From: Sacculina carcini
Taxonomy: Eukaryota; Arthropoda; Thecostraca; Sacculinidae
Direction: 5' to 3'
Assembly (NCBI GenBank): GCA_916048095.2
Contig: OU696572.1
Coordinates: 10,637,376-10,701,375, forward strand
DNA: 64,000 bases
Shown piece after piece: positions 14,301 to 52,000 of the stretch. The number at the start of each line of letters is the position of its first letter. Position 1 is the first letter of the stretch. Position numbers and translations under genes: made by a program. A model generated the notes under the pieces. It made no database searches and was not told the origin of the DNA. It saw only the letters and a program-made list of their open reading frames with translations.

Positions 14301-16493
14301 GTATGGTTTCTTTACCGGAAATCAACAGACTTGCCAGGAAATGTATAAACAGCGGTAATAAGTTACTATTATATTTGGTTTGGTGCTAGTTTATGATTTG
14401 TGATAGTGTTGATTACAAGAATGTTTCCAGAGGGACATAATCAGCTTATTTGGATAAATTAGTCTTTGTAGCCTGAAAACGTGAAAATATATTTATTAAG
14501 ATCTATCCAAGTAGAATTTGCGGATTTTGATGATACTGTTTTATCAACAAGTGACAGCAGTGGATTTTTTTATTTTAACTATTAATTACAGGCAAATTCA
14601 GTAACATGGGGGAAGAGTGCAAGCACTATTACCACCCTGCGGTGGTCTCATGTACCCTGGAAGCACCCAAAGGATATAGAGAGAAAGAGAGTTTGAAAAG
14701 TACAGCAGCAAATAAAATTATCAAATGAAAAGGATAAATAAAAGTGTGTATATATAATTGTGCAACAGATTCATTAATATAATATAGCAACGCAAAGATT
14801 GACTAGAAACGTATAATGATAATGAACAAAATCTAAACATGTAAAAATAAAGGAAAAATTTACCAATATGTAAATATATTCGAGTCCCCAATGGAAAACT
14901 CAGGTACAAATGAGACAAAATATAGAAAGGCAGCTTGAAAAAGCACATGAGCTTGGCAAGTTTGTTATGATCGTCTTATCGTGTCTGTTCAATCTTTGGT
15001 GGGCTTGTACTTTTCTCTCGGAGAATCGCTGTATTTTTCTCAAATTCTGTGCCTGTCCATTGGCTGTGGTGGTGATAAAAACATGGTGCTGGTTCTTCTA
15101 GTATGTGCAAGGCATGTGCGTAACATGGTGCTGTTTTCATTCCGCAAATAGCTATGATCTACACGCTTTTACAAACAAATTCTTTCAATCCCAGACACAC
15201 ACACACACCCACACATGTGATTATCAGTTTAAATTACTCACAAAAACTTGTTAATGTTTTATGATTTAATAGCAAGTCAAGTGTGGGATCATTAAGTGTG
15301 TTAAAGCGTGTCATAATTTTGTCGTATATTTACACTGCAAAAAAACACAAAAGCCAATCAAATATTTGATATGTTCCTTATAATCGCTGTCTGCATATTA
15401 TGTCAGATTGGCAGGCTTCACGAAAACCATGCAATAGATAATCAAAAATATAATTATTCAAATATATAATTTTTAACTGAATTTTGCTGTTCTGTGAATA
15501 TTCGTGCTTGTTCTGAGTGAGAATGATTGATCAGACATTGTTCGCATTCTCTCAGATTTTATGATATTTTCAGGTAATTTCGAAATTTCCCTTAATCGAT
15601 GTAATGGTTCTGATAGTTTTGTCAGCGGTTTTATGTTGATATCATGAAAAAAACGAATGAATTTCTCACGTTGATATTGCGCATGTACCTTCTCTCGGAA
15701 TTGAAGAGTTTAGGAGAAATGTAAAGTGTGTGAAATGTGTAAGAAATGTGGCTTGTGAATCCTTGTACGTCAAATTCTATATAAGAGTCAGTTTCCAGGC
15801 TTTATATGCCTACTCCTGTGCATCCAGTAGAATCATCTGTTATCTGTTATCATTCATTCTGAGTCATCAACGTTTCATTGATGTAGGTATATTCTCTTGC
15901 AGTGGCGGCGCTAGGATTTTTCCGATGAGGGCTGAGGGAGTAGGGCTAGGCGAAGGGCTTGTAGCGTTATTGGTTTTCGGTTCCGGTGTAACCAATAACA
16001 CTACAAGTTGGACCCCGACGTGATCTGAACCCGACGTAGTGTGTGGCGGTGTGTGGCAGTGTTTGGACATCTGTGGCGAACTCGTGGTTATTTTAGTTCA
16101 TCAAAACATTCATTATGTTTGGTAGTGTTATTGGATACACCGGAACCGAAAACCAATAACACTACAGACTAAGGAAAATTTGCGTCGGCTTGGCAAAACA
16201 TTTTTTGGGGGTTCAGGGGGCTTGGTACATTTTTCTTTTGGGGGAGGGGTTTAAGCCCCCCATGCCTCCCTTGGCGCCGCCACTGGCTGCTACCATGAGC
16301 AGGGCTAGGTGGTATTTTTACGAAAATCCTCCTCAAAAGTTATTCGTTATTTCAACGTTTTTCTATCCAGGCAGTTCTATTTTATTTTATATTCCCTGCT
16401 CTGTTCTCTTCTGTTCTTTGCTCAGAAAACCTCATCTTGTCACATTTCAGACTAGTTAGCATGTTTATTGTTCGTACCTACGCAAACATACAT

Positions 16494-19536: not shown

Positions 19537-19999
19537 GTGTGTGTGTGTGTTTGTGTGTGTTTGTGTGTGTATGTGGTCTGCCAAGGGGTACAGGGTGTTC
19601 TTTTATTTAGTGCTGAAATTTTGGATCCGGCGATTTTGGGCGAATTTGCACTGCTTATTTTTATTCCAGCCCCGTGTATTTGCCGTCTGACGCGTCACTT
19701 TCACTCGGGGTGGGCGGAGGGCACCACTGGGAAAATTGGTCAAAGCTGGTTTCGCTGTTATCGTGCTATTTCTGTTGATTTTGCTATCCGACAAATTCCA
19801 GTCGCAACCTTTGGCCTAACGCTCGGCCAACTAGCGACATCTGGTGTCAGTTTTTTGTACTATCACATTAGCTCACTGTTCTCAGGCTTGCTTTGTGTTT
19901 TGGCCAATGTGGAGGACGATTGTTTCTCAGTGCGTGGGTTCCATTTCTAGTTCTCCATGCTATGCTTCCTTGCTCTGGGCGGCTCAATAGGCAGTACTA

Positions 20000-20554
20000 C
20001 AATATTGCCCTATGAACATATTAGCGACAAACGCTTGTATACTCCCATACTCTGCAATAGGGCAATATGCTCACCTCGGCCAGTGTAGTGTCAAAGGCGT
20101 ACCAAGTATGATGAGAGCGACTGCGGCTTGTGGCCAATATGTTCACTTTTCACCATAGCATAATTTCAGTGGTTTTCAACACAACGCACGAGTTTGTTTA
20201 CAATAGATAGCTAGCACGTAACATACTGTGTGGTTATAGGTTAGGTTAGTTTGGTCAGGTTAGTTTGGTCAGGTTAGGTCAAGTTTGGTTAGGTCAGCTT
20301 ACTGAACCTAGCCAATAACCACACACAGTATGTTTGGTGCTAGTCATCTGTTGTATACGAACTCGTGCGTTGTGTTGAGAACCACTGAAATTATGCTATG
20401 GTGAAAAGTGAACATATTGGCCACAAGTCGCAGTCGCTCTCATCATACTTGGTACGCCTTTGATACTACACTGGCCGAGGTGAACATATTGCTCTATTGC
20501 AGAGTATGGGAGTAGTCGGGCATTTGTGGCTAATATGTTCATAGGGCAATATTG
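20000..20554. mobile_element. Foldback DNA element with about 237-bp arms
   Basis: Starts CAATATTGCCCTATGAACAT and ends with the reverse complement of the same sequence. The arms run about 20000-20237 and 20318-20554 and are nearly identical in inverse. The 80-bp centre holds degenerate GGTTAG(TTTGGTCA) repeats. Perfect 5-bp direct repeats TACTA flank it at 19995-19999 and 20555-20559. It has no coding capacity. The superfamily is unknown to me; a 5-bp duplication is not the 8 bp of hAT nor the TA of Tc1/mariner. Confidence 0.92.
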
Positions 20555-21301
20555 TACTAGATCCGCTCAATCGTTTAATCCATGAATGGTGTTAATTTGC
20601 ATAGTTTATTGGTTAAGAAGAGTGTGGGATCACAGGATTTGCCTCACTTTGACTTTGGGCTAGCTTTTTGGTCAGCTGAGTTGGCTGGTGTTCAGCTTTC
20701 GCTGCGCTCAATTAATCAGTCTTTGAATCCAACTATACCCGTTGTAGATGCTTATCCATGAGGGTCCGTACAACTTTGACACTAAATGTTATAGACTGCT
20801 CTTTTTTGGGGGGGCTTAACCTTTTTTTCTCGTTAGCATTGTGTTTATTGTAGAATTTTGCGTTATTTTTCGGTCAGTTTCACTATTGTAGCAATTGTTT
20901 GATGTTTTACGAAATCCCATTCCATATATATCCTGTTTTTTCTTCATTATGATCTTGTTTATGGGCTTGTGTGTTTGTGTAACCTTCGCTAGCAAGTGTG
21001 TGTGTCTGTGTGTGTGTATGTGTGTGTGTGTATGTGTGTGTGTGTGTGTGTGTATGTGTGTGTCTTCGTACTTGAACCAATTTGAGCCAGCGTGTAAGCT
21101 ACCCGAGCACTTGGAGACAATTGATTAAAAATGATTTGCAGTGTGCTGACAAGTGTTATGTCTCATTTTTTGCCGATTTTTATCTCCGAGTCGCAAAAAC
21201 TGCCTCGCACAACCGGATTTCGGCGGATAAAATGTGCCGAGATTCGGTTTGTTTGTATACACACACACACACACACACGCACACACAGAGTTTGAGAACC
21301 T

Positions 21302-29664: not shown

Positions 29665-38832
<9,168 letters not shown>

Positions 38833-42399: not shown

Positions 42400-42599
42400 T
42401 ACGCACAGAGATACGAACACATATACGCACAGAGATACGAACACATATACGCACAGAGATACATACACATGACACACACACACACACATGCAGACACGCA
42501 CGTACAAATATATTTACAGCAATGACAATAGCATTGTGTGTACAAATCAACAGGGTGAGAATGTCTGAAAATTCGACAAAATATTGTCGGATACAAACA

Positions 42600-43130
42600 T
42601 GACATGACAAAACATGACATGACAAAACATGAAATGACAAGACATGACATGACTAACATGGCATGACAAACATGACATGACAAACATGACATGACAAAAC
42701 ATGACATGACAAACATGAAATGACAAAACATGACATGACAAAACATGACATGACAAAACATGGCATGACAAACATGGCATGACAAACATGGCATGACAAA
42801 ACATGGCATGACAAAACATGGCATGACAAACATGGCATGACAAACATGGCATGACTAACATGGCGTGACAAACATGAAATGACAAAACATGACATGACAA
42901 AACATGGCATGACAAACATGAAATGACAAAACATGACATGACAAAACATGGCATGACTAACATGGCATGTAAAACATGACATGACAAAACATGGCATGAC
43001 TAACATGGCATGACAAACATGGCATGACAAACATGACATGACAAAACATGGCATGACAAAACATGACATGACAAAACATGACACATCATGGTACAAAATG
43101 ACAGAACAGGACAAAACATAACAAAAACAT
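42600..43130. repeat. ACATGACATGACAAA minisatellite
   Basis: About 37 units of 14-15 bp (ACATGACATGACAA with G/A and AA/AAA variants), 530 bp in all, grading into degenerate copies up to 43280. Confidence 0.95.
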
Positions 43131-45164: not shown

Positions 45165-48100
45165 ATGTTCTCCACGTCATGGTCTGGTCGTAGCTGGCGT
45201 CGATGGTGGCTTATTGCACGCGCTCGACCGCGCAGCTTGCGCTGGCTGACGACAGGTGTCGCCACAGTCGTCAGCTGTTGTCTACTACTGTTGTCGCAGC
45301 TGCCGACGTCGTCGCGCCGGTCTGGTCATCGGCAGCTGGCGGCGGCCTTCTGGGGCAGCTCAGCCGATGATGGTCAGTGGGAGGATAGAGTGGCGGCTTG
45401 CGAGAACGAGGCGCCGTTGTATCGCGCCACGGCTGACGTGGTCGTTGAGGAGATTTTGCCTCAGCTCAACTTCAATGTGAGTCCCACACACACACGCACA
45501 CACACACAGATAATGCTTATGCAATTGTTAGATAGGGATAATTGTATATTTTGGGGTCATTCAGGCAAGAGGGGTCATGTGAAATATCTGGAAAGTACTG
45601 GATGTTTGAGAGATGTTAAGAAGTATAGTTTCCCATATACAGGTGTGTGTTGATGTCTGGAATCAGTTAGGGGAGGAGATTGTACGAGCTAAAAACGTAG
45701 GAAAATTTAGAGAAAGACTGGATAGTGTATGAAATACTGGAATTTCAGGGAAGATAGGTTAGAGGGTGGGTTGGAGACAGGACAGTACGAGCACAGCTCA
45801 TCTCCTGTGCTAAACAAATAGCTGAGTACACACACACACACACATGAGCGTTGCTAATGGTGCAATCGGGAACGTTATATTAAACAGGACTGTTAATGAG
45901 CGAACATGTACAATTGGAAATGAGATAAAATTTTGGTATTAAAATTACCCAAACACAACAGACACCAGCAATTAATTAATTAACTTGTGTTTTCGGCTTT
46001 CACTCTGACCACTCTGTTCTGTAGATCATCTCTTCTCGTTTTTACTCTGTTCCGTATATTCTCTCTTTCTTCTCTGTTTTTACTGTGATCTCTCTTTTGT
46101 TGATCCTCTCATCTCTTATTTCTCTGATTTTCTTTTTCTCCTTTTGTTTGACCGTCACAATTCTTTTTTCGATGTGATATGCTTGTTGATCTGGGAATAT
46201 GTTCTTCGGCACAGGCGAGCTGGCCGGCGCTGAAGACATTCTGGACCAGCGACATGGAAGAGCGCTACCGGAGAATCGCCAACAATCCCGTACATCCTCT
46301 CAAGGTGAGCTAAATGCTACAGAAATGCTACAGAAAAATATCTATCTTGACCTCTTAGTGACAATCTTGGCTATGAGGAGTTGATGGAAACATTTTGGGG
46401 GCTTAACCCCCTTGAGCCCTCCCTCTGGATCCGCCACTGGTCACTGACATATAGCAAGTGGTAGAAAAACATTCCAACACAAAGCCAAAGAGAAAGCATG
46501 TTGGTCCGACGATATTCCGGCGTTCTTACAGCCAAATGAGGACTGCAAGTGCTACGAACCAAGCTGTGTGTTTATAGCAACAATCAAGAACGATGAGAAT
46601 GATGATGTCAATCAAGAACGATGAGAATTAAGAATCAAGAACGATGAGAGAAATTTCCATTGCAACCAGTCTCTTTAATACTTAATGGCAAACACTTGAT
46701 AATATCACTATATAATAATAATATAATTATAAATAATTACGTAATAAAAGAATAATATATAATTACGTATTACTTGAATAGAACTTCGAGAAAAATTTTA
46801 CCTCGTTAGGGAATCGAACCAAGATCACCTGTTCACAAAGCGTGTGTATCAGCTCTTCGATTATGAGGCGGACAGAAAAACATGTTTCCGCCCGGGCTCG
46901 AACCGGGGACCTTCCGCGTGTTAGGCGGACGTGATAACCACTACACTACGGAAACCTGATCACAATGTGCTTTGTTATGCTGGTGTATGTCCAGTGTGAC
47001 ACGATTAGCGGTGGAACTCGATTCATGCTCATTTTGAGTGTTGGTGTTTTAAAATACGAATATAACTCCAAATTGTGGATTTAGAGATGTCAACATTAAT
47101 TTATTCTGTTAGTGCCCATTAATCCCGTCTGAAAATATTCATATATTTTCCCTACCCATCTTTTGACTTTTTTTAGTTGTACAAAACAGTTTGACTTTTT
47201 TTAGTTGACATATTGGTGGAATTTCTGTAACGTCATTTACTTGTTTATTCATTTTTATCATTTAATATTTTGCTCATTATTTTTTTATAATTTATTTGAG
47301 AGTTTTGATGTGATATCTGCATTTTGCTATTTATTTCTTCCTTTATTAGCTCTCATCTTCCTGAGTTAACTCTTATTTCTAACACTATCTTTTTCAATCT
47401 CTCTCTCTCTATACATCTTTTGGGCACTTCCGTTGCATGAGGTCACTGCAGGATGGTAATAGTGGATGTCAAGATTCAAAACACAGATTACAACAGCTCT
47501 CAAACTTTGTCACACTATTTTTCCCAACATTTTGTCAAAATTCAATGAATATGTATTGTGTTGGTTTTACATATTCATCCGATTTCGTGGAGAAATTTTT
47601 GCGCACGCACAAACACACACGCACACACACACACTAACACACAGACACATACTAGAACGAATCTCACTACACAAAATTACACAAATAAATACACAAGTAA
47701 TTACTTATTAATCAATTATTAATATCAATTATTAATTAAATATTAAATATTTAGGTAATAATCATTGCTAATCAGCGTTGTTAATATAGCATATAATTAT
47801 CATGAAATATTTGTTAAGCTTGTGGAAAATTCAAGGCGTAGTGCGGGTACTGAAGAATTGCTTCTTTGTTTACGTTACAGTTCATGAGGACGCATCAATG
47901 TGAATTTTGTACTTCAGTTAAATATGTGCTTGCGTTTTTTTAGCGTGTTTTATTTTTATTTCTGAGAGAATATCATTTGGAAGCATGCAAAAATTAACAG
48001 GCAATATAATATGACATTCACACAAGTAATCGTGCATTCAGAAATCAGACAGCCAATTTTTACTTGGTTGACATTAACGAAAATGTCATTTGTGAATATC

Positions 48101-49094: not shown

Positions 49095-52000
49095 CTCATA
49101 CACTCACTTGTAGCACTCTCAAACACTATGAATTTGCTGAACTAGCTGAACGCTCAAAGGTGAGCACATCAAAACAACGTTGAGTGAGGCCATTTTTACC
49201 TGTCATTCACAACTGAGACAATATTGTGATGGAAAAACTGTGTCTGTGTGTGTGTGTGTATGTGTATATATGAGTGTGTATATGAGTGTGTGTGTCTGTG
49301 TGTGTATTTGTATATATGAGTGTGTATGTGTGTGCGTGTCTTTGTATGTGTATATATATGTGTGTGTGTGTGTGTTTGTGTGTGTATATATGTGTCTTTG
49401 TATATGTGTGTACGTGTGTGTGTGTGTGTGTCTTTGTGTATATGTGTGTGTATGTGTGTGTGTATGTGTGTGTGTGTATGTATGTGCGCGCGTGTGTGTG
49501 TACGCGTATACTTGAGAGAAATCATAAACAATGTCTCAAAATAGCCTGCTGATCAATAGCCGATTGTTGAGTGTTGATGTGTCCTCATGAACACTGCACC
49601 GTAAACGTAGAAGTAATTCTTCAGTAACCGCACTGCACACTGAATTTTCCACAAGCTTAACAATTAGTTTATTACAAGTAAGTGCTGTATAATAGTTATT
49701 CACACTGATTATTACTTAAACATTCAATATAAGGATATTTATTAATAGTAATAATTGATTAATGAGTTATTATTACTAAATTAATATTTATTTATTTATA
49801 TTAAATTATTTATAATTATTTATAGTGTTAGAAAAAAGAAGTAAGTCAGGAAGATGAGAGCTACTAGAGGAAGAAATAAATATCAAAATGCAGATATGAA
49901 AACTCTTAATAATAAGAAAGATACCGATACTAATAATGAACGAATTAATAGATTGAACTAAATAAAATAAATAAATATTAATGAGCGAAATATTAAAATG
50001 AATTAACAAATATATGAAGTTATCAAATTTCGACCAATATGTACATGTCAGTATGTACAACTCAAATAAATGCCAAAAGAGAAGCGGAAAAAATATGAAT
50101 ATTTTCAGACGGAATTTATGGGCACTAACAGAATGAATAAATCTTGACATCTCTAAATCCACAATTTGGAATTAGATTCGTATTTTAAAACACCAACACT
50201 CAAAATGAGCATGAATCGAGTTCCACCGCTAATGTGTCAAACTGGACATTAACAGGCATAACAAAGCAGCATTGGTAAGGTTTCCGTAGTGTAGTGGTTA
50301 TCACGTCCGCCTAACACGCGGAAGGTCCCCGGTTCGAGCCCGGGCGGAAACATATTTTTCTGTCCGAAGGTATGAGTAATCTGCGGTTTGATTCCTTGAC
50401 GGAGTAATACTTTTCCTGAAGTAATGCCAGAGTATATTATTATTAATAATATATACATTAGTATTTTATTCTATTAATAAGCAATGTATAAGATTATTAC
50501 AAGTAGTTGTATGTCAATATGGGTACAGGCCAATATTGAAGCGTAGAAAACGTGTTTTAATTCGATCAAAATAATTTGCTCTGCGTATAGTTTTGATTGG
50601 AATTTTTTTTACAAGCGTTTCAAGAAAGACGTGTTATCTGAAGGAAATAGTCACTTTTTAATGTTAGGACACGTATCATTTTTCATATTCAATTTCGCAT
50701 CCATCGAATATTAACATAGACTAAATATCATGTATATAATGTTGACTCTTATGATAAACACGATCGATAAACACGATCGGTCAAGTCAAGTCTTTTATTC
50801 ATTCGAAACAGCGGCTTATATATGCAGAGTAAAATAAGCGGTCAATAATCCGTGTACATAAATAGCTTTATTTCTAGGCTGGAAATTCCAATGTGTGACA
50901 TTATCTTGCATACGCATATGTGTTTGTTTGTCTGTGTGTATGCGTGAATCCCACGGTGTGCTAAATTTGCAGATGAATGAAACGGTATGTACGTGTGTGG
51001 TGTGCGTGTATTTTTGACATAATTGTGAGTAATGAAGTGCTATATGAGTTATGCTACAATAACATGACATTCAAACAAATAATCGTCTATAAATTGTGGC
51101 TCGGTGTATGTATGCAATTTTATGCAATATACTTTTCGCTGATATATGTGTGTTGTAATTTGAATAGGCCGAACATTATTTAGAGTACATGAAATCGATA
51201 AACTGAGACACATTTGAACACTAATGCATGATGATGGCTGTCATCCCCCCGAGCCTCGACACAAATCTACACCCCTGCTAAATTCCTATCAAATACCCAC
51301 AGGTATACTGTGTATGTGCATGTGTTTGTATGTACATTTGTGTGTGTGTCATGTATGAGCCAGATAATGGTCGTTCCACACAGTCACAATGACCCTGGAT
51401 GGGGCTGGACGTTCGAGGCATATTTCAGGTCGCGCACCAAACTCGTACTGGACTCGATCGTGGCCATGATGCCTCAAATGCCGCTCATGCGTTTCATGTG
51501 GACCGAGATCAGCTTTCTGCACATCTGGTGGCAACAGTAAGGCTTTAAAGCCACGTTTCCTTGACGCATACCATGATCGAATCCGGGGCACGGCACCATG
51601 TTGAAATATGCAGACTTTGTTTTCTATTTTTACACCCGAAAGCCCGTTACTGTTTTATGTTGCCATAAACAGCTTCTACGACAAGAGAACCAGAACAGTG
51701 AGGATTTCGCACTTACGAAGGCTGGTGTTCTGGTCGGATTTAAGTACGGTTAGGCTTTCATGGTTGCGAGGTGTGGCAGAAATAATTAGTGCCCACTGTT
51801 TGCTTTAAAATAGGTGGTGTTGTGCGTTTAAAGCCTAATTTCTATTGTTTACGTCAAGTGTGAATGCTGACCTGTTTTTTTGGTCTAGAGCTAGCGAAAT
51901 CGATCGACAAACGATGAAAAAATTGATAGCTTCGGGTCGACTGGAGGTCACGACCGGAGGATGGGTGATGACTGACGAAGCGATCACCACAATCCGATCC

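Follow-up and report, generated by a model that had tools for sequence, protein, structure and literature searches.

A likely Mutator-type foldback MITE with 8 bp target duplications in the genome of Sacculina carcini

The closest published parallel that we found to the element described here is Tm1, a Mutator/Foldback family of root-knot nematodes with a Phantom-type MULE transposase (PMC3169594). As it is described there, Tm1 has unlike short end motifs outside foldback-like inverted arms, a coding copy with a MULE transposase, MITE-like copies that form the largest group (typically <0.5 kb in Tm1), and one copy whose two ends are alike and which lacks a duplication; in each of these points the element from Sacculina carcini resembles it (PMC3169594). 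The two differ in the target duplication, which in that account is mostly 9 bp (8–10 bp) for Tm1 and is 8 bp in the Sacculina element, in the end motifs, CGGTTAA and CCTACCC in Tm1 and GGGAGTAC and GGATCTAG here, and in the arms, which hold 14 bp tandem repeats in Tm1 and other repeats in the Sacculina element (PMC3169594). Set beside such cases by description, the Sacculina element would stand for a further MULE family in which the two ends are unlike and foldback MITEs occur.

MULEs are reported to have long TIRs and target duplications of 8–10 or 8–11 bp (PMC5225508, PMC6446971). For animal MULEs, the cited accounts give 8–10 bp duplications and TIRs of 18–613 bp for the Phantom elements (PMC6446971), and duplications of 8 or 9 bp for Muta1 (PMC5225508). 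The size of the duplication, the length of the TIRs and the MULE domain are shared with these Phantom and Muta elements, a likeness at the level of MULEs (PMC6446971, PMC5225508). Foldback-type inverted arms are also described from Drosophila. Galileo has such arms, but is assigned to the P superfamily (PMC4168063), and Tetris, which is called apparently non-autonomous, has inverted arms as well, in which tandem repeats of about 220 bp are described (PMC4079207).

The element is situated in a 64,000 bp stretch of the Sacculina carcini genome (C3:10637376–10701375), which we refer to as the window and whose positions are used below. It is real and well defined, a small and non-coding piece of mobile DNA of an ordinary type, not a new class. 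Very probably, in our view, it belongs to a Mutator-like (MULE) transposon family, of which it is a non-autonomous foldback MITE.

Ends and architecture of the element

The inverted arms are found at positions 19995–20232 and 20322–20559. Compared without gaps they comprise 238 nt each, are 92% complementary and are spaced by 89 nt, and a gapped alignment of the window copy gives 91.1% over 248 columns. In the arm alignment the long (sub)terminal inverted repeats extend over 19995–20240 (left arm, plus strand) and 20312–20559 (right arm, minus strand). In the 1.2 kb analysed the longest perfect inverted word has 48 nt; after mononucleotide shuffling (20 replicates) it has 9–18 nt. Between the arms lies a loop of TTAGG-like repeats (20233–20321, plus strand, with limits taken from the ungapped arms), repeats that the original prediction had also noted. 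Folding as RNA yields −441 kcal/mol for the window copy and −483.5 kcal/mol for the consensus of the copies, values that do no more than restate the inverted repeat. The original suggestion that the transcript may be a source of small RNAs draws on this hairpin.

The ends of the element were set by comparison with 39 other copies from the same genome. In these copies end A is GG(G/C)AGTACTACAATATTGCCC, reading GGGAGTACTACAATATTGCCC across copies, and end B reads GGATCTAGTACAATATTGCCC. The termini are therefore not alike, GGGAGTAC-TACAATATTG versus GGATCTAG-TACAATATTG, and inside them are the inverted arms of about 245 bp; the inverted repeats of MULEs are commonly longer than 100 bp. By this comparison the complete copy in the window, a presumed Mutator-type element of 575 bp, has its true limits at 19990 and 20564 (plus strand). 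Its A end, GGCAGTACTACAATATTGCCC, takes up positions 19990–20010 on the plus strand, and its first bases differ from those of the B end, which occupies 20544–20564 and reads GGATCTAGTACAATATTGCCC on the minus strand.

In the window TACTA flanks CAATATTG on either side. The original prediction saw in these bases a perfect 5 bp target duplication, and a family producing such duplications would account for what is present in the window itself. In the other copies, however, the five bases beside CAATATTG belong to the element: on the right side all 39 copies have TACTA or TAGTA, and on the left side 33 do, the remaining six showing small changes or alignment shifts. Beyond them the 39 copies have the fixed outer ends GGGAGTAC.. 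or GGATCTAGTAC.., and the flanks outside these longer ends repeat over 8 bp. The apparent 5 bp duplication resulted from setting each boundary 10 bp too far in, and it is rejected. The comparison with other genome copies, which had been proposed as a check, assigns these bases to the element, and we attach practically no probability to a family that makes a 5 bp duplication.

Target duplication and copies in the genome

The genome searched is a 264 Mb assembly of 43 contigs. A 30-mer of end A matches it at 351 places and a 30-mer of end B at 338 places, each with at most two mismatches; a reversed-pattern control gave no match. Forty copies were compared, namely the window copy and 39 copies fetched with their flanks. 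A first look had given 547 candidates, of which these 40 were scored, and the sample favours copies resembling the one in the window. Two pairs, L010/L011 and L031/L039, have common flanks, and hence their members are not independent. The end types in this sample are A/B in 36 copies, A/A in three and B/B in one.

The insertion of the element duplicates 8 bp of the target. In the window the 8 bp flanks are GCTCAATA on the left (19982–19989) and GCTCAATC on the right (20565–20572), equal at seven of the eight bases. When the flanks of the 36 A/B copies were compared in a fixed register, at least seven of eight bases were equal in 20 copies and all eight in 13. When the left boundary is allowed to move by one base, these numbers are 24 and 17. 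In the control, where flanks were re-paired in the fixed register, the mean was 0.64 copies and the maximum 4 in 1000 trials. A clear 8 bp duplication is absent in 12 of the 36 A/B copies, and the four like-ended copies have no good one. The copy L012 is situated inside a related element; AATATGTT is now found on both sides of it, but 12 extra bases adjoin its end B, so that the duplication is not clean, and it was scored as 6/8 in the count.

The like-ended copies, four of the 40 and each lacking a good 8 bp duplication, are what speaks for a different origin of the feature, namely a segmental inversion or a hairpin caused by a replication error instead of an insertion. Against this stand the hundreds of dispersed end matches and the 36 A/B copies, 24 of them with a duplication. 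For the window copy, which has an A and a B end and a 7/8 duplication, such an origin is refuted, and for the feature as a whole we regard it as extremely unlikely. The element is a complete foldback insertion with many copies, which agrees with the original description; its 5 bp duplication is the part that did not stand.

The core is turned relative to the ends in four further copies, two of them at loci with common flanks. An exchange between inverted arms or between copies would be expected to give like-ended copies and turned cores, and it has accordingly to be considered whether the foldback arms act as recombination points that rearrange the genome. We regard this as a tentative possibility and as rather doubtful. 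The like-ended copy on C8 has another reading, as it could be part of a larger composite element. At this place (C8:1614000–1614900, comprising L098 and L018) an A/A foldback comes after a short B end that is joined to other sequence, and CTTATAAC is present at both outer sides of the composite.

The consensus of the 40 copies has 566 bp. From it 32 copies diverge by 3.0–6.9%, the window copy by 5.8%, and the remaining eight, which have a turned core or like ends, by 8.7–13%. Between the two arms, identity is 96.4% in the consensus (247 columns) versus the 91.1% of the window copy. The suggestion that the insertion is fairly young draws little support from a copy that is 5.8% away from the consensus and whose arms differ by about 9%, compared with about 4% in the consensus.

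Long relatives, the MULE domain and other transposases

For the pairing of A and B ends, exact end matches on C1–C9 only were used, that is 84 of the 351 A matches and 95 of the 338 B matches. On these contigs 51 facing A/B pairs are shorter than 700 bp, with 49 of them at 490–640 bp, and 10 facing pairs are longer, including one of 6.86 kb on C2 and one of 6.25 kb on C7. Short stretches read inside these two long pairs consist of the arm and then of sequence that is not present in the MITE. On C2 the interior read repeats the sequence beyond the arm in the element that hosts L012. A search with this interior led to long relatives at C2, C7, C8, C21, C22, C37, and C1. A search with the B-side arm of C7 gave, among the 40 scored of 452 candidates, matches of at least 96% at C2, C7, C21, C36, and C37 and of 90–91% at C9. 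Near C22 no B-side match was found among these 40, and the C22 relative may therefore be truncated.

Long elements with the same two ends and with 8 bp duplications are present at C2, C7, and C21 and measure 6.2–6.9 kb. At C21 (about 2689722–2696175) both ends were read: the A and B ends enclose about 6.45 kb, and the element is flanked by CAATTATA on either side. The flanking sequence is TTTGCTGG at the C2 relative and CTTCCAAC at the C7 relative, in each case left and right alike. In all three elements the 8 bp duplication is exact, and its size is within the 8–11 bp of MULEs. The two sides of each of these elements match by 82–84% some 260–370 bp from the ends. Between the inner arms of MITE copies and the B-side arm of the long element the match is about 80%.

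A MULE domain (PF10551) is situated between the A and B ends of the C21 element, at C21:2692188–2692514. In both C21 and C22 the distance from the A end inward to the domain is about 3.7 kb, and the direction is the same. From the C22 domain 109 aa were read, which match PF10551 with an E value of 4.9e-10; the C21 domain is 97% identical to it and is known by its position and this identity. One element, that of C21, thus combines the two ends with a transposase domain. For the long relatives on C2 and C7, which have both ends, the genome listings of MULE domains contain no entry, and these relatives probably lack or have lost the MULE gene. By chance about 0.0013 MULE domains are expected per 6.5 kb span if the 52 MULE places of the genome, which are partly clustered, are taken as evenly spread.

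Because C21 shows the same two ends around a MULE domain, the MITE is probably moved by a MULE transposase of the same genome, as judged from these sequence comparisons. This transposase would bind the shared ends and arms in trans, and the short hairpin element would be cut out and pasted elsewhere with an 8 bp stagger. The MITE probably arose from a long element in that the coding interior was lost and a short TTAGG-like loop remained between two arms. A single assembly that contains the long relatives as well as the short copies in their hundreds offers material on the origin of MITEs from long elements. The earlier statement that the element matches no family that could be named rested on the 5 bp duplication, which would suggest an unknown superfamily. 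Once the ends are placed correctly, the duplication measures 8 bp, and a MULE domain is present in a relative that has both of them; the classification is corrected to this extent.

In a relative of 395 bp, L088, end A and a short end B occur with a single arm, and the duplication ACAATGAT is exact. It looks like a deletion product of a long element, given that the final bases of its interior agree with the interior of the long relatives. From L088 and the C8 composite L098 we considered that the arms could be an inverted copy of one end only; this was discarded, the long relatives carrying inverted repeats on both sides. A search for A or B ends that diverge straight after the end gave two places in the first round, both MITE copies, and 21 places in the second, of which 14 were fetched and five were in loci already covered. 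Among the loci read, a B end without arm is found only in L088 and L098, L092 keeps about 70 bp of the arm, and the others are whole or damaged copies.

A MULE at C1:5220325 was rejected as partner, since the nearby A end is that of an ordinary MITE, which is flanked by a duplication of its own, TTTGAGCT. This MULE is near a MITE by coincidence, and nearness alone therefore proves little. MULE-domain matches recur at C8:7407895–7437903 with a spacing of about 6.5 kb; four are 87% identical to the C22 domain, and each of these has one stop. Downstream of a long relative, frames for Gag, protease, and reverse transcriptase were seen (L087:7333–9999). An early suspicion that they are part of the long element was given up.

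The duplication of 8 bp also brings other superfamilies into consideration. First, the element could be a Merlin-type MITE that is moved by the Merlin transposase of the same genome. Merlin elements are described with terminal GG, duplications of 8–9 bp and TIRs of 24–462 bp (PMC8101967), and in its terminal GG, its 8 bp duplication and the length of its TIRs the Sacculina element resembles them (PMC8101967). Merlin domains are present at nine places in the genome. At the six Merlin loci whose ends were examined the ends begin with GG and the flanks are equal at 8/8 (three loci) or 7/8 bases (three loci). The Merlin loci, however, have ends that read GGTCCTTACG or GGTGCTTACG. In 1.5 kb on each side of the nine loci, with up to five errors allowed, no A or B end was found, so that at none of the nine is a Merlin transposase (DDE_Tnp_IS1595) combined with the ends of the MITE. 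At C21 it is a MULE domain that the two ends enclose, and a Merlin origin appears very improbable.

Second, hAT and P elements are both capable of 8 bp duplications, and P-type domains are present at 30 places in the genome. Similarity to the MITE was found neither at 20 of these places with 1.5 kb on each side nor at eight places with about 4 kb on each side, seven of which are among the 20, so that 21 of the 30 places were covered. At the P loci examined in this way (20 narrow, eight wide) no P transposase stands in a copy with the same ends. The inverted repeats at the wide loci contain CAACGCCACC in five of the eight cases, in three of them at the first base. The duplication motif that is typical of hAT-like elements, nTnnnnAn, fits only three of 27 hand-listed duplications. 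An assignment to hAT or P is to our mind just as improbable as one to Merlin, and a MULE family is preferred.

Other features of the window

Besides the element, the window contains several other repeats. A MITE-like element of about 205 bp is found at 15960–16166; its 45 bp arms are 95% alike, and each arm is itself nearly palindromic. At 2037–2102 there is an interstitial TTAGG repeat, CTAAC ×13, which resembles the loop of the foldback element. A long CA array occupies positions 1–594, an array of a 21 bp unit (TCTCTCTTTTCTCTTTATTTA) positions 35294–35978, and an array of a 15 bp unit (AAACATGACATGACA) positions 42595–43083. The regions 46869–47388 and 49822–50366 form an inverted duplication (80% over 556 columns) with a tRNA-Val (AAC) gene in each arm. 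Frames near the foldback element match a serpin, a GH38 mannosidase and a JAB domain.
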